A DNA stretch of 64,000 nucleotides, from positions 372,001 through 436,000 of the forward strand of contig JAIXUG010000028.1 of the NCBI GenBank assembly GCA_027484105.1. Reading direction: 5' to 3'. The position numbers were made by a program, and so were the translations under genes. Shown piece by piece: positions 51,483-57,653 of this stretch. Under the pieces are notes generated by a model. That model worked only from the letters and a program-made list of their open reading frames with translations. It did no database searches and was not told the origin of the DNA. This DNA comes from Comamonadaceae bacterium. Its GTDB lineage: Bacteria; Pseudomonadota; Gammaproteobacteria; Burkholderiales; Burkholderiaceae_C. The first letter of the stretch is position 1, and each line of letters starts with the position of its first letter.

Positions 51483-54400
51483 TCAAACCCGCGCCAGGAC
51501 AGGCCCCAACGCCACCCCCGTGTGGGTGCCCAAACGCACCACATCTTCCGGTGACGCCGCGGCCACAATGCGGCCACCCGCATGGCCACCTTCTGGCCCC
51601 AAGTCAATGATCCAGTCAGCCTCGGCGATCACATCCAAGTCGTGTTCGATCACCACCACACTGTGCCCCGCATTCACCAGCCGGTGCAGCACGCGAATGA
51701 GCTTGTCCACATCGGCCATGTGCAGGCCCACGGTGGGCTCGTCCAGCACATAAAGCGTGTGCGGCGCCTTGTTGCCGCGCTTGCCCACCTCATCACGCAC
51801 TTTGGTGAGTTCGGTCACCAGCTTGATGCGCTGGGCTTCTCCGCCACTGAGCGTGGGTGAAGGCTGGCCCAAGGTCAGGTACCCCAGACCCACGTCCTTG
51901 AGCAGTTGCAGCGGGTGCGCGATGCTGGGCATGCTGGCAAAGAAGTCCACGGCCTCGTCCACTTCCATTTGCAGCACATCGCCAATGCTCTTGCCACGCC
52001 AGGTCACGGCCAGAGTTTCGGGGTTGAAGCGGGCACCCCGGCAGGTTTCGCAAGGTACTTTCACATCGGGCAAAAAGCTCATCTCGATGGTGCGCATGCC
52101 CTGGCCTTCGCAGCTGGGGCAGCGACCTTCGCCGGTGTTGAAACTGAAGCGCCCGGCGGCATAACCCCGGGCCTTGGCCTCCAGCGTTTCGGCAAACAGT
52201 TTGCGGATCGTGTCCCAGAAACCAATGTAGGTGGCGGGGCAGGAGCGCGGTGTTTTGCCAATCGGCGTTTGATCAACTTCCAGCACGCGGTCGATCGTCT
52301 CAAAGCCTTGCACATCGGTGCACGCTGTCAACGCCACACGCTGGCCTGCATCTTGCGCGGTGCGCCCTGCGAAGGTGGAGCGCTGGTTGACCAGCGCCTG
52401 CACATTGGCCAACAAGACATCGCGGGCCAGGGTGGATTTGCCCGAACCGCTGACGCCGGTCACGGCCACCAGTCGCTTGAGAGGCACCTGCACATCGACT
52501 TGGCGCAAGTTGTGCAGGTTGGCACCGGTGAGGGTGAGCCATTGCAAATCCACACCACCCGCCGCTTCTTTGTGGGGCGGTGGCGTGGGCGCCGATTTTG
52601 GCGTACCCCCGCCGTATGAGGCGCCCGCGCCACCGCCCCACAAAGAAGCGTCCACGGAACGACGCAACTGCATCGGATGCTTCATCGCGTGCAACAAATA
52701 GCGCCCGGTTTGTGAATCGGCCGAAGCCGTGATGTCGGCCACCGAGCCCTCGGCCACCAAGCGGCCACCGCGTTTACCGGCACTCGGGCCGATGTCGATG
52801 ATGTGGTCAGCGCGGCGAATCGTGTCTTCGTCGTGCTCCACCACCACCAGCGTGTTGCCCTTGTCGCTCAGGCTTTGCAAAGCATTGAGCAAGATCTGGT
52901 TGTCGCGGGCGTGCAGACCGATGGTGGGTTCGTCCAGCACGTAGCACACGCCTTGCAGGTTGCTGCCCAGTTGCGCGGCCAAGCGGATGCGCTGCGCCTC
53001 GCCACCCGACAGCGTGGGCGCGCCCCGGTCCAGCGTGAGGTAACCCAAGCCCACTTCTTCCAAAAACTCCAGGCGGCTTTGGATCTCGGGTACCAGGTCA
53101 CGGGCGATGTCAGCATCACGGCCTGTCAGGTGCAGCTTTTGCACCCACTGCCGTACATCGCTCACCGACAGGCTGGCGATGTCGGTGATGCGCCAGCCCT
53201 GGCCCGGGGCTGCACCCAGGCGCACGGCACGCGCCGTGGCGTTCAGGCGGGTGCCTTCGCAACTGGGGCAGGCCACATTGGCCAGGTCTTCGATCTCGGG
53301 CTCGGCAAAGGTCTGCTCGCGGCCCTTGTCTTTGTCGTCGCGCACCGAATCGTCGAACACTTGACGCTCGTCCTTGCTCAGCTTGACGCCCGTGCCCACG
53401 CAGTCGGGGCACCAGCCGTGTTTGCTGTTGTACGAGAACAAACGCGGATCGAGTTCGGCATAAGACGTGGCGCAAGCCGGGCAAGCGCGCAGTGTGGAGA
53501 ACACCCGGTGCTGCCCGATGCGGGCGGTGGATGCGCCACTGAACATGGCTTCGCGCAAGCCATCCAGATCGCTCAACACATGCACCACGCCCTTGCCGTG
53601 CTCCAAGGTTCGGGTCAAGGCTTCGCGCAGTGCGGTTTCCTTGCTGGGCAACACATCCAGGCTGGCCACGGGCAACTCGATGCTGTGTTCTTTGAAGCGG
53701 TCAATGCGCGGAAAACTTTGCGTGGGCAAAAACTCGCCATCGACACGCAAATGCGTGTAGCCACGCGGGCGCGCCCAGTCGGCCAGTTCGGTGTACACGC
53801 CCTTGCGGTTGGTGACCAGCGGCGCCAGCAGGCCGATGTGCTGGCCCTTGAACTGCGTCATCAACTGCGCAATGATGCTGTCGGGGGTTTGCGGCTGCAC
53901 GGGGGTGTTGTCGTGCACGCAATGCTGGATGCCCAGCTTCACATACAGCAGGCGCAAAAAGTGCCAAACCTCCGTGGTGGTGCCCACGGTGGATTTGCGG
54001 CCGCCGCGTGACAGCCGCTGCTCGATCGCCACGGTGGGTGGAATGCCGTACACCGCATCGACCTCGGGACGGCCTGCGGGCTGCACGATGGCGCGGGCAT
54101 AGGCGTTCAGGCTTTCCAGATAGCGGCGCTGGCCTTCGTTGAACAGGATGTCAAAGGCCAGCGTGGACTTGCCGGAACCGCTGACGCCCGTGACCACGTT
54201 GAACTTGCCGCGTGGAATGTCCACGCTCAGGTTTTTGAGGTTGTGCTCTTTGGCGTTGACGATCTGGATGTTGTTGTTCAAAACAGGCGGCTGGCGAGCA
54301 ACCGGAGCCAGCAAGATGGCACCTTCCCCGCCTCGAACCTTCGCCAGCGAGGCTGCGGTGTCAGAGGGTGACGATTTTGGCGTACCCCCGCCGTATGAGG

Positions 54401-57400
54401 AACCCGCTGACACCGCAGCCTCGCCCCCACGAACACCCGACCGCCCAGCCAGAACATCGAACTCACCCCCATCAACATTCAAACGCTCAGCCACACCATG
54501 CACCTCGCCCATGGCCTGTGCGTACTCGCGCAACGCCAGCCCGGTGTGTGATGTGGGGTGCTGACGCACGTCCTCGGGCGTGCCCTCGGCCACGATCAGG
54601 CCGCCGGCATAACCCCCTTCAGGCCCCAAATCAATCAACCAATCGCTGGCGCGGATCACGTCCAGGTTGTGCTCGATGACGATCAGCGAATGCCCGGCTT
54701 CAAGCAGCTTGCGCAAGGCGCGCATCAGCTTGGCGATGTCGTCAAAGTGCAGGCCGGTGGTTGGCTCGTCAAACAAGAACAGCGTGCCCTTGCGCGCCAA
54801 ACTTTGGCGGCTTTTGGACGCACTTTTAGCGGCCTCGGCCAGAAAGCCTGCGAGCTTGAGGCGCTGCGCCTCGCCGCCCGAGAGTGTGGGCACGGGCTGG
54901 CCCAGACGCACGTATTCCAGACCCACATCCACGATGGGCTGCAGGGCGCGGATGACTTCACGGTCTTGCGCAAACAAAGCCGCCGCTTCGCTCACGGTGA
55001 GCTCCAGAATGTCGGCCACATTGAGGTGGCGCACCGCACCGCCGATGGCCTGGCGCTCGATGGTGATTTCGAGAATCTCGGGGCGGTAGCGTTGGCCATC
55101 GCAATCGGGGCAGCGCAAATACACGTCGCTCAAGAACTGCATCTCGACGTGCTCAAAACCCGAACCGCCGCAAGTGGGGCAGCGGCCATCGCCGCCGTTG
55201 AAGCTGAACTTGCTGGCGGTGTAACCGCGCTGGCGCGATAAGGGCGCGGTGGCAAAAATCTCGCGGATCGCGTCCCACGCGCCCACATAGCTGACCGGGT
55301 TGGAGCGGGCGGTTTTGCCAATCGGTGACTGGTCCACAAACACCACATCGCTCAGGTGGTCAGCGCCCAGCAGGCGGTCGTGCGCACCGGGCGTTTCGGT
55401 GGCTTTGCCAAAGTGGCGCATCAGCGCCGGGGCCAGCACGTCCTGAATCAAACTCGACTTGCCCGAGCCGCTGACACCCGTGATGGTGACCAGGCGCTGC
55501 AGCGGAAAGTCCACGCTGATGTTTTGCAGGTTGTGCTCGCGTGCGCCTTCCAGAATCAAACGCGGCGTGCTGTCGCTCACCATGCGCTTGAAGCCCAGGC
55601 CCACTTGCTTGCGCCCACCCAAATAAGCGCCGGTGAGTGTATCGGCCTTGCGCAGGTCGGCGGTGCTGCCGTCAAACACGATTTGCCCACCGCGCTCACC
55701 GGGGCCGGGGCCCATGTCGATCATGCGGTCAGCGGCCAGCATCACGGCCGGGTCATGCTCGACCACCACCAACGTGTTGCCCGCGTCGCGCAGGCGTTGC
55801 ATGGCCCGTGTGATGCGGTGCATGTCGCGCGGATGCAGGCCAATGCTGGGCTCGTCCAGCACAAACAGGGTGTTGACCAGGCTGGTGCCCAGGGCGGTGG
55901 TGAGGTTGATGCGCTGAACTTCACCGCCGCTGAGGGTTCGGCTTTGGCGGTCGAGGGTGAGGTAGCCAATGCCCACGTCGCACAGGTATTTGAGGCGGGT
56001 GGTGATTTCTTCGAGCAGCAGTTGCAGGGCTTTTTGTTCGGCGCTTTTGCCTTGTCCTGGTTCTTTGGCGGTTCGGTCTGCGTCAGAACGTTTTGCTTCG
56101 GTGGTTTCTTCGGCGGTTCGGTCTGCGTCAGAACGGGGGGCGGGCTCCTCATGAGGCGGGGGTACGCCAAAATCGTCGCCCACCCCCCGTTCTGACGCAG
56201 ACCTTGTGGTCGATCGAACGTCTGACGCCGATACCCGGTCAAAGAACAAGCGCAAGCGGTCCAGCGGCATGATCATCATGTCGTGCAAACTCAAGCCCGG
56301 CAGCGCCTCCAGCTGCGCGCGTGTCCACTTCACACCTGCGGGCATGAAACGCTTTTCTACCGGCAAGACACCTTCGGCGTCCGAGTGGCTGCCGATTCGC
56401 CACAGCAAACTCTCTGTCTTCAAGCGTGCGCCTTGGCAGGTCGGACACTCGGTGTAGCTGCGGTACTTGGACAAGAGCACGCGGATGTGCATCTTGTAGG
56501 CCTTGCTCTCCAGGTACTCAAAAAAGCGCTTCACGCCGTACCACTGGTGGTTCCAGCGGCCCTTCCACTCGGGTGAACCGTGGATCACCCAGTCTTGCTG
56601 AGCCTGGGTCAACTTGTCCCAAGGCGTGTCACGCGGAATGCCAGCGGCCTCGGCGTGCCGCATCAGGTCGTCCTGGTTTTCTTGCCAAGCAGGGGTTTGC
56701 AGCGTCTTGATGGCGCCGGCGCGCAGCGTGAGCTTGGGGTTGGGAATGACCAGGCCATAGTCAACGCCGATCACACGCCCAAAACCACGGCAGGTCTCGC
56801 AAGCGCCCACGGCCGAGTTGAAGGAGAACATCGACGGGATCGGGTCGGTGTAGCGCTGGTCGCTGTCGGGGCAATGCAGGCCGGTGGAAAAACGCCAGAT
56901 ATCGAAGGCGGGCTCAGAGGAAGAAGATAAATTGGGATCTGACCCCAATTTCTCCACATACACGTTCAGGCGGCCACCGCGTTTGAGGGCCACTTCGATG
57001 GCTTCGACCACGCGGGCTTTTTCGGCGTTGCCGATGCGAAAACGGTCGGCGATCACGTCCAGCACTTTGCGCGGGCCGGTGGGGGTGGCCACTTCGCGCT
57101 CGGCCTGCACTTTGGTGAAGCCGCTGGCCGAGAGCCATTGCTCAACTTGCTCGGCGCTGGTGTTGGCGGGCAGCTCAACCGGAAAGGTCAGGTACAAGCG
57201 CGGGTCACCCGCTTGCGCGGCGCGCTGGGCCAGCTCAGCATAAATCGTGTCGGGATTGTCGTGGCGCACCGGCTGCGCGGTGTCTTTGTCAAACAACTGG
57301 CCCAAACGCGCAAACAAGAGCTTGAGGTGGTCGTTCAGCTCGGTCATGGTGCCCACGGTGGAGCGCGAACTGCGCACCGGGTTGGTCTGGTCGATCGCAA

Positions 57401-57653
57401 TCGCCGGGGGCACGCCTTCGACCTTGTCCACCGCCGGTTTGTCCATGCGGTCCAGAAACTGGCGGGCATAAGCGCTGAAGGTCTCGACATAGCGGCGCTG
57501 GCCCTCGGCATACAGCGTGTCAAACACCAAACTCGACTTGCCCGAGCCGCTGGGGCCGGTGACCACCGTGAGCTCACCCGTGCGGATGTCCAGATCGATG
57601 TTTTTGAGGTTGTGCTGACGGGCACCACGGATGCGGATGAGACCTTGGGACAT
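51483..57653 (-). CDS. uvrA: Excinuclease ABC subunit A, tandem ('dimeric') form
   Basis: A 2056-residue protein, about twice the usual UvrA length, consisting of two full UvrA units. Four Walker A motifs are visible (GPSGSGKSS near residue 35, then GVSGSGKSS or GVSGSGKST near 728, 1158 and 1735) and four LSGGE signatures near 575, 925, 1551 and 1935. Zinc modules include CPTCGGSGFEHVE, CPSCEGQGMRTIE and CPACATSYAE. A single chain thus supplies what normally is a UvrA homodimer that scans DNA damage for UvrBC. The long form is known in some proteobacteria alongside a normal uvrA, which is not in this window. Its linkers carry three palindromic insertions (residues about 484-512, 1077-1103, 1668-1697) and a REP-like palindrome (about 235-242). 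Confidence 0.93.
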   Translation of the reverse strand: MSQGLIRIRGARQHNLKNIDLDIRTGELTVVTGPSGSGKSSLVFDTLYAEGQRRYVETFSAYARQFLDRMDKPAVDKVEGVPPAIAIDQTNPVRSSRSTVGTMTELNDHLKLLFARLGQLFDKDTAQPVRHDNPDTIYAELAQRAAQAGDPRLYLTFPVELPANTSAEQVEQWLSASGFTKVQAEREVATPTGPRKVLDVIADRFRIGNAEKARVVEAIEVALKRGGRLNVYVEKLGSDPNLSSSSEPAFDIWRFSTGLHCPDSDQRYTDPIPSMFSFNSAVGACETCRGFGRVIGVDYGLVIPNPKLTLRAGAIKTLQTPAWQENQDDLMRHAEAAGIPRDTPWDKLTQAQQDWVIHGSPEWKGRWNHQWYGVKRFFEYLESKAYKMHIRVLLSKYRSYTECPTCQGARLKTESLLWRIGSHSDAEGVLPVEKRFMPAGVKWTRAQLEALPGLSLHDMMIMPLDRLRLFFDRVSASDVRSTTRSASERGVGDDFGVPPPHEEPAPRSDADRTAEETTEAKRSDADRTAKEPGQGKSAEQKALQLLLEEITTRLKYLCDVGIGYLTLDRQSRTLSGGEVQRINLTTALGTSLVNTLFVLDEPSIGLHPRDMHRITRAMQRLRDAGNTLVVVEHDPAVMLAADRMIDMGPGPGERGGQIVFDGSTADLRKADTLTGAYLGGRKQVGLGFKRMVSDSTPRLILEGAREHNLQNISVDFPLQRLVTITGVSGSGKSSLIQDVLAPALMRHFGKATETPGAHDRLLGADHLSDVVFVDQSPIGKTARSNPVSYVGAWDAIREIFATAPLSRQRGYTASKFSFNGGDGRCPTCGGSGFEHVEMQFLSDVYLRCPDCDGQRYRPEILEITIERQAIGGAVRHLNVADILELTVSEAAALFAQDREVIRALQPIVDVGLEYVRLGQPVPTLSGGEAQRLKLAGFLAEAAKSASKSRQSLARKGTLFLFDEPTTGLHFDDIAKLMRALRKLLEAGHSLIVIEHNLDVIRASDWLIDLGPEGGYAGGLIVAEGTPEDVRQHPTSHTGLALREYAQAMGEVHGVAERLNVDGGEFDVLAGRSGVRGGEAAVSAGSSYGGGTPKSSPSDTAASLAKVRGGEGAILLAPVARQPPVLNNNIQIVNAKEHNLKNLSVDIPRGKFNVVTGVSGSGKSTLAFDILFNEGQRRYLESLNAYARAIVQPAGRPEVDAVYGIPPTVAIEQRLSRGGRKSTVGTTTEVWHFLRLLYVKLGIQHCVHDNTPVQPQTPDSIIAQLMTQFKGQHIGLLAPLVTNRKGVYTELADWARPRGYTHLRVDGEFLPTQSFPRIDRFKEHSIELPVASLDVLPSKETALREALTRTLEHGKGVVHVLSDLDGLREAMFSGASTARIGQHRVFSTLRACPACATSYAELDPRLFSYNSKHGWCPDCVGTGVKLSKDERQVFDDSVRDDKDKGREQTFAEPEIEDLANVACPSCEGTRLNATARAVRLGAAPGQGWRITDIASLSVSDVRQWVQKLHLTGRDADIARDLVPEIQSRLEFLEEVGLGYLTLDRGAPTLSGGEAQRIRLAAQLGSNLQGVCYVLDEPTIGLHARDNQILLNALQSLSDKGNTLVVVEHDEDTIRRADHIIDIGPSAGKRGGRLVAEGSVADITASADSQTGRYLLHAMKHPMQLRRSVDASLWGGGAGASYGGGTPKSAPTPPPHKEAAGGVDLQWLTLTGANLHNLRQVDVQVPLKRLVAVTGVSGSGKSTLARDVLLANVQALVNQRSTFAGRTAQDAGQRVALTACTDVQGFETIDRVLEVDQTPIGKTPRSCPATYIGFWDTIRKLFAETLEAKARGYAAGRFSFNTGEGRCPSCEGQGMRTIEMSFLPDVKVPCETCRGARFNPETLAVTWRGKSIGDVLQMEVDEAVDFFASMPSIAHPLQLLKDVGLGYLTLGQPSPTLSGGEAQRIKLVTELTKVRDEVGKRGNKAPHTLYVLDEPTVGLHMADVDKLIRVLHRLVNAGHSVVVIEHDLDVIAEADWIIDLGPEGGHAGGRIVAAASPEDVVRLGTHTGVALGPVLARV
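52563..52650. repeat. Palindromic insertion A in uvrA
   Basis: Inverted arms of 31 bp (52563-52593 and 52620-52650, one mismatch) flank a 26-base centre beginning GATTTTGGCGTACCCCCGCC. The insert is in frame and encodes SLWGGGAGASYGGGTPKSAP in the uvrA product. The centre is shared with insertions B and C; the arms are not. Confidence 0.85.
54347..54424. repeat. Palindromic insertion B in uvrA
   Basis: Arms of 23 bp (54347-54369 and 54402-54424, one mismatch) around a 32-base centre containing the same GATTTTGGCGTACCCCCGCC and then GTATGAGG. It is in frame at the junction of the two UvrA halves and encodes AVSAGSSYGGGTPKSSP. Arm sequence is unrelated to A and C. Confidence 0.83.
56067..56135. 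repeat. Tandem 45-bp repeat next to insertion C
   Basis: GGCGGTTCGGTCTGCG followed by TCAGAACG occurs at 56067-56090 and again at 56112-56135. It gives two 15-residue repeats in the protein (RSDADRTAEETTEAK, RSDADRTAKEPGQGK). The second copy forms the left arm of insertion C. Confidence 0.8.
56120..56203. repeat. Palindromic insertion C in uvrA (opposite orientation)
   Basis: Arms of 26 bp (56120-56145 and 56178-56203, one mismatch) flank a 32-base centre that is the reverse complement of the A/B centre (GGCGGGGGTACGCCAAAATC on the plus strand). In this orientation it encodes GDDFGVPPPHEEP. It is also in frame. Confidence 0.83.
56929..56951. repeat. REP-like palindrome in uvrA
   Basis: Arms AAATTGGG and CCCAATTT with a 7-base centre ATCTGAC. 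GGGGTCAG-type palindromes of this form are widespread extragenic repeats in proteobacteria. Here it is translated in frame as KLGSDPNLS at uvrA residues about 235-242. Confidence 0.7.

Follow-up and report, generated by a model that had tools for sequence, protein, structure and literature searches.

What kind of sequence lies three times in one protein gene, leaves its reading frame open each time, and shows the same centre between arms that differ from copy to copy? This question is raised by a uvrA gene in a 64,000-nucleotide stretch of DNA from a freshwater Comamonadaceae bacterium that we place in Limnohabitans (assembly GCA_027484105.1, contig JAIXUG010000028.1, positions 372,001 to 436,000 of the forward strand; hereafter the window, i.e. 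that whole stretch), in which we analyzed three palindromic insertions, here called S1, S2 and S3. We consider it likely that the insertions represent old copies of a hairpin element, small and non-autonomous, which is akin to repetitive extragenic palindromes (REPs) and miniature inverted-repeat transposable elements (MITEs) and which a Y1 transposase putatively moves in trans. The element, which we refer to by its motifs as the CGATTT/ATGAGG hairpin, is most readily understood as a REP/MITE variant that is defined by structure, having an internal loop that is unusual and conserved and arms that change fast but are compensated. It is apparently undescribed, as no description was found in the literature searched, which was available in part and covered few subscription papers; a preliminary description of the locus knew of no named family either, and none turned up in the searches made.

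The three uvrA hairpins and their family

The host gene is a fused, duplicated uvrA, whose 2056-aa product exceeds the cut-offs of the NCBIfam UvrA models NF001503 and TIGR00630 in five stretches. A repeat search returned three near-palindromes of 88, 78 and 84 bp (S1, S2 and S3, respectively), each with one arm mismatch and one of them reversed, exactly where the preliminary description had placed them and with the same arm lengths. Two further claims made there also held, namely that the arms of the three copies are mutually unrelated and that all three are read in the uvrA frame: a single open frame of 2056 aa spans the hairpins, which are read as SYGGGTPKS twice and as DFGVPPPHE once. Folded as DNA, either strand of S1, S2 and S3 gave z from -8.6 to -12.0, equalled by none of 200 shuffles. 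The 17-mer TTTGGCGTACCCCCGCC occurs exactly at three places in the window, and with three mismatches at a fourth. When one mismatch was allowed, it was found three times in the whole genome, always in uvrA and with the third copy reversed, and in 45 of the 90 genomes of the source genome's genus.

The centre, of 26-32 bases, had been described as constant. While it is indeed common to the three uvrA copies, the constant part is smaller in the family as a whole, since CGATTT and ATGAGG alone are invariant in an alignment of 25 diverse members. The unit consists of an arm of about 25 bp, GACGATTTn, a mini-hairpin, nTATGAGGA and the second arm, the complementary strand reading TCCTCATAC, a small hairpin and nAAATCGTC; the sequence of the mini-hairpin, which lies inside the internal loop, is lineage-specific. 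A sister type with CGATGT and CTGAGG has three members, which were excluded from the alignment. Sister centres of the TCTGGCGAGA and GAAGTCGCTGCGCGCCACAC types, with arms of their own, were also seen in the uvrA linkers of other subclades (L152-L155, L159 and L164).

A covariance model built from the 25 members was used for the family searches, and found nine copies in the source genome, i.e. the three in uvrA and six with other inner stems. The genome-wide search for the centre, which had been suggested beforehand, hence gave the uvrA copies at the level of the 17-mer, whereas the structure model added six more. With three of nine copies found, plain sequence search provides a partial view of such families. 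By the same model, copies were present in all 36 Limnohabitans genomes and in none of 24 genomes from other families of the order. In Comamonadaceae, 53 of 299 genomes and 35 of 141 genera were positive at E <=1e-4, four of the 53 genomes belonging to the source genome's genus; the two larger searches with the model were run under strict filters, by which weak matches are lost. Positive genomes had 1-34 copies, and those copies outside uvrA whose surroundings were read lie between genes or close to gene ends. A type-A 20-mer (type A being a centre described below) had no match in viral contigs, and a plasmid collection searched in distant mode gave two Streptomyces matches of about 30 bases, taken as chance.

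Hairpins often have a neighbor. Of 27 pair clusters, with two hairpins 60-450 bp apart, 25 have the strands of GACGATTT type pointing outward and none has them pointing inward, the remaining two being tandem, one in each sense. In G019 and G027 a given pair recurs several times, each time with one combination of two different arms. The three window copies do not form such pairs. At L260:4413-5856, a TacA-like antitoxin gene and a GNAT gene are enclosed, in the manner of a cassette, by hairpin pairs that are nearly identical and equally oriented, and in L259 four such pairs are situated between peptidase, ApbE and other genes.

Table 1. Features of the uvrA locus, in window coordinates; arm values are length and identity between arms.
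Feature	Position	Strand	Arms	Centre	Evidence or remark
uvrA, fused/duplicated, 2056 aa, host of the three hairpins	51483..57653	-			open reading frame; NCBIfam UvrA models
Hairpin S1	52563..52650	+ (GACGATTT-type strand, antisense to uvrA)	52563-52593 and 52620-52650 (31 nt, 97%)	52594-52619 (loop 26)	repeat search; covariance-model match G000:C7:424575-424638 +; 20 orthologous S1 sequences
Hairpin S2, linker joining the two UvrA halves	54347..54424	+ (GACGATTT-type strand, antisense to uvrA)	54347-54369 and 54402-54424 (23 nt, 96%)	54370-54401 (loop 32)	repeat search; covariance-model match G000:C7:426354-426417 +
Hairpin S3	56120..56203	- (GACGATTT-type strand, sense to uvrA)	56120-56145 and 56178-56203 (26 nt, 96%)	56146-56177 (loop 32)	repeat search; covariance-model match G000:C7:428130-428193 -
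Separate in-frame repeat AATTGGGGTCAGATCCCAATT	56930..56950	-			translated in UvrA as KLGSDPN; this palindrome also borders the Y1 transposase gene of the source genome

Paired change of the arms and sites without the element

A 20-mer scan of the genome collection gave 59 stretches, assigned by marker peptides to uvrA (37) or to the region between recQ and queC (22). When sorted by arms, they fall into six recurrent sites, of which S1-S4 belong to uvrA and S5-S6 to the recQ-queC region, and one further recQ-queC copy (L059) has arms of yet another kind. One and the same centre, type A, is common to these six sites at two loci, with different arms at each. S4, which the window lacks, is a second and oppositely oriented hairpin beside S3 in many relatives. 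Each site has arms of its own, which are alike across species, though with much variation at S1, so that the uvrA copies are mostly inherited in place. One record titled Akkermansia muciniphila (HRSG-E13-bin-26; L062 and L070) contains uvrA and recQ-queC elements of Limnohabitans type and looks mislabelled.

The variation at S1 was followed in 20 orthologous hairpins, from genomes where our script found a hairpin with the expected loop. Pairing was seen in 94.6% of the arm cells, compared to 37-49% when the partner was shifted by 1-3 columns. Both sides had changed in 11 of the 27 arm pairs, and 53 compensated cells were observed versus 17.5 +/- 3.1 in shuffled data. Mean divergence was 25% in the arms (maximum 48%), 8% in the centre and 13% in 300 coding bases downstream (maximum 19%). 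As S1 arms may thus differ by up to 48% and still be paired, fast change in both arms at once can by itself give copies an unrelated appearance, and a special insertion mechanism would not be needed.

Such a mechanism had been put forward in the preliminary description, where the arms were taken as inverted copies of local sequence: the centre would insert and repair would copy one flank in inverted form, the arm thereby being an inverted target duplication. It would account for arms that differ among sites, and for S1 sites without a centre where a portion of one arm survives (L157, L160 and L161). However, hairpins enclosed in terminal repeats (see below), in G007, G010, G019 and like genomes, have 33 distinct arms at many unrelated intergenic sites, and of these 31 have an inner end of the GGGGGCT type, 23 an outer end (C)AATC and 22 both, so that mainly the middle differs. 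Arm ends that are largely shared across unrelated sites indicate that arms travel with the element. Whole copies also seem to be exchanged, since the arms of G075 at one orthologous site equal those of G010 at a different site, beside a glmS-like gene, bar one or two bases. Arm length is narrow, i.e. 23-27 bp in 187 of the 274 distinct elements, and polarity is fixed, with more G than C in the 5' arm in 20 of 22 similarity clusters and two ties, the clusters being products of single linkage and, with 252 of the 274 elements in one of them, not all independent. Together with the paired drift at S1 and the direct repeats found at the junctions of one-arm sites, this makes foldback copying of the flank very improbable, and the claim that the arms derive from local sequence is not supported.

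The comparison with relatives lacking the centre, proposed along with that claim, had a divided outcome. None of the three uvrA hairpins is present in L160 and L161. At the S1 sites of L157, L160 and L161 most of the hairpin is gone, and the part of one arm that remains could agree with what had been predicted, but the junctions are marked by TCAC and TTTG, short direct repeats of the kind expected of slippage deletions. Contrary to the prediction, L169 has both S2 arms and no centre. This state looks like a loss, because the leftover loop resembles the inner right arm; in a tree of the UvrA N-halves L169 is the sister branch to most S2-bearing genomes, a position by which gain and loss are not separable. 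For the uvrA copies, we found no site that was cleanly empty and had either no full arm or exactly one. At an intergenic site, B, the 22 genomes compared comprise 8 with a full unit, 2 with a reduced one and 12 with none, the anchors of the missing unit being 17 bp apart in L344 and 29 in L350. The reduced forms are terminal repeats alone (L339) and arms without centre in which the inner arm half is also gone (L342). At another intergenic site, A, the hairpin tip in L332 holds a different terminal-repeat unit in place of the centre.

Some of these states would also suit a centre that is itself the mobile unit and enters the tips of pre-existing palindromes, the arms being its targets. Both arms without a centre in L169, arms closing on each other in L342, the foreign unit in the tip of L332, and a type-A centre that recurs at six sites, in two loci, between arms that differ are all in line with this. 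Nevertheless, G-rich 5' arms and a narrow arm length are unexpected for arbitrary palindromes, the residual loop of L169 is what a deletion would leave, and L342 has lost more than the centre. We therefore find tip insertion unlikely.

If, as we prefer, the hairpin as a whole is the element, short-range template switching or repeated passage through a hairpin intermediate may preserve the complementarity of its arms. A more specific idea, which we regard as doubtful, is that one arm moves with the loop while self-templated foldback synthesis supplies the other, whereby every arm mutation would be written on both sides at once. If true, such half-hairpin copying would explain why S1 arms diverge about twice as much as the flanking gene and yet stay complementary, around a putatively protein-binding loop that is constant.

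Strand preference and the Y1 transposase

Because the covariance model favors G-U pairs, arm mismatches were tested separately in elements found without it, i.e. 132 distinct elements with 3352 arm pairs and 247 mismatches. On the GACGATTT strand these were G.T in 154 cases, A.C in 17 and other in 76, or 79, 16 and 51, respectively, as distinct events within arm groups; this strand tolerates G.T pairs but not A.C pairs. If neither strand were favored, the two kinds of mismatch would be expected in roughly equal numbers, and the bias suggests a strand-specific, single-stranded hairpin. In uvrA, where counts were based on each site's own arm length (and on 14 of 15 rows at S4, one with an N being dropped), G.T to A.C was 51:3 at S1 and 16:2 at S4, both with the GACGATTT strand antisense to uvrA, and 21:3 at S3, where this strand is sense. 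The folded GACGATTT strand seems to be protected irrespective of host-gene transcription, and the bias, which holds at two sites where that strand is antisense, agrees better with single-stranded DNA as the substrate than with an element of the mRNA.

This bears on the alternative that the hairpin is not mobile but a structured RNA or cis-regulatory element under selection at the mRNA level. Compensated stems, tolerance of G.T pairs and a G.A-rich internal loop are features it would share, and copies do occur between genes, one pair separating recQ from the divergently oriented queC. On the other hand, the protected strand is antisense at three of the four uvrA sites, and orientation flips at orthologous sites between relatives, the centre being inverted at both intergenic sites (L288 versus L285 at A, L334-L336 versus L285 at B). 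Eight single copies between tandem genes are evenly divided into four sense and four antisense, as judged by the longest reading frames, and the 14 Rfam matches in window positions 52500-56300, mostly microRNA hairpins, are all below the gathering score. A role in RNA is accordingly quite improbable.

As for the enzyme, a Y1 transposase gene was found in all 12 genomes searched, at 15 loci, and in nine of these the GGGGTCAG repeat flanks the gene on both sides. Repeats of the GGGGTCAGATC... type that also flank the Y1 gene enclose 34 of the 266 hairpin elements with enough flank to be tested, all in one genome group; GGGGTCAGA was present on both sides in these 34, on one side in 3 and on neither in 229. 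In G007, G010, G019 and G027 the terminal repeat of the hairpin units equals the Y1-flanking repeat, AATTGGGGTCAGATCAACATTAATT, up to a base. Genomes positive for such units, as far as they are included in the UvrA N-half tree, form one branch. Because hairpin units and Y1 gene are flanked by the same terminal repeats, the hairpins of this group were probably moved by the Y1 enzyme, and this mobility may extend to hairpins without terminal repeats, those of the window included. Three Y1 proteins scored 81.9, 78.8 and 77.7 with NF047646 (REP-associated tyrosine transposase), the cut-off of which is 80.

Several findings count against a Y1-driven hairpin element. A GACGATTT hairpin was found within about 1.5 kb of the Y1 gene at none of the 15 loci in the 12 genomes, so the link to the transposase rests on the terminal repeats of one group. 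Such repeats are lacking in the window copies, as in the 229 tested elements mentioned above, and only one of the Y1 proteins scored reaches the NF047646 cut-off, the other two narrowly missing it. S2, antisense to uvrA, shows no strand bias (G.T 5 versus A.C 4). Among the five measures of the S1 shuffle test two were weak, namely double-changed pairs (11 versus 8.6 shuffled, reached by 10 of 500 shuffles) and further pair types (29 versus 27.6, reached by 134 of 500). The centre-less sites (L157, L160/161, L169 and L342) can be read in several ways, and no excision, target duplication or movement was seen in the sequences compared.

We still favor a mobile hairpin, which might operate as follows. 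A Y1 (HUH) transposase of the REP-associated type would recognize the folded single strand via its internal loop and move the folded hairpin in trans, while the arm sequence would be free to drift provided that the hairpin still forms. In uvrA, linkers that tolerate in-frame insertion would let copies persist, to be inherited at fixed positions.

The uvrA linkers are hot spots for several repeat families. In the linkers of relatives (L129-L163) we observed further in-frame repeats, read as RVKPEDD, SPRFARDD/ARSAATRQS, PSLAGQAPT/VGASPAGD and ALSPEGRG/PLPLAGEGGGEG. The repeat AATTGGGGTCAGATCCCAATT (Table 1) has, with up to 2 mismatches, 13 matches at 12 places in the source genome, and a 30-base direct repeat (97%, 45-bp spacing) is situated at 56061-56090 and 56106-56135, its second copy overlapping an S3 arm. 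That the hairpins reside in uvrA, whose linkers also hold several other repeat families, is relevant to why repair genes collect such insertions. The family is also a clear case for asking how changing palindromes remain near-perfect, and amounts to a natural covariation experiment on the way in which a transposase acting on single-stranded DNA could read structure over sequence.

Comparison with known palindromic repeats

Various known systems were compared with the hairpin. Integron attC sites have conserved boxes at the base and a variable part at the tip, and were dropped since a conserved internal loop with variable arms is the opposite layout. A likeness of the G.A-rich loop to K-turn or SECIS (selenocysteine insertion sequence) motifs was also set aside, as the outer G.A pairs become Watson-Crick in some copies. 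In Rickettsia palindromic elements the whole hairpin is conserved among copies. The uvrA hairpins are like these in being palindromic insertions in a protein gene, all within one 2056-aa frame, but unlike them in that the loop core alone is conserved, the arms of the three copies being unrelated. Two such elements, RPE-4 and RPE-6, are named in PMC3733652.

Closer to our elements are the GTAG- and CGTC-tagged REPs, described as dispersed, mostly intergenic palindromes that measure 20-40 bp and carry an unpaired tag on one side (Di Nocera et al. 2013, PMC3733652). REPs within uvrA and other repair genes have already been published, e.g. in Thioalkalivibrio uvrA and in both O. terrae uvrA genes (PMC3733652). 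Dispersed palindromes, inverted dimers, compensated stems with G.T pairs and copies in uvrA are common to both (PMC3733652), whereas in our family it is an internal loop in mid-hairpin that is conserved, the arms of about 25 bp are variable, and the Y1 gene is unflanked by the hairpin at 15 loci. No unpaired GTAG or CGTC tag ends the hairpin; its motif lies inside, the arm ends vary by site, and CGTC is present beside the inner hairpin rather than at the foot. Moreover, all window copies exceed 40 bp, the shortest being 78 bp, and the arrangement of a REPtron, in which the repeat flanks the gene of a REP-associated tyrosine transposase (RAYT), was seen at 0 of the 15 Y1 loci. Opposite orientation, a feature of REP dimers in many families though not in all, is found in the 25 outward-facing pair clusters.

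TIRYT genes (TIRtrons) have a Y1 gene between terminal repeats with a GGGGWSAS motif (PMC3733652). The resemblance extends to the Y1 gene between terminal repeats, a GGGGWSAS-like motif (GGGGTCAG here) and dispersed units, while the repeats described here differ by enclosing a long CGATTT/ATGAGG-loop hairpin, in one genome group only. Terminal inverted repeats like those of the Y1 gene, as a MITE should have, are thus carried by the 34 elements of that group and are absent from the window copies.

REPINs are reportedly known from work by Bertels and Rainey. They are inverted hairpin doublets with a spacer, a proposed replicating unit that is moved in trans by a RAYT (PMC3116915). Inverted doublets occur here as well, but instead of two inverted copies of the same REP the paired hairpins have different arms, and arms are not conserved. 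In E. coli, TnpA-REP binds and processes the folded REP, which has a conserved bulge, and does not do so with iREP (PMC8266576). Taking iREP as the complementary strand, a conserved mismatch or bulge in the stem and a choice of strand are shared with our hairpin, whereas the GTAG tag at the hairpin foot is lacking here. What this family keeps is an internal loop together with the capacity to form the hairpin, leaving most of the element's sequence free, unlike the palindromic repeats compared above, which are defined by sequence.

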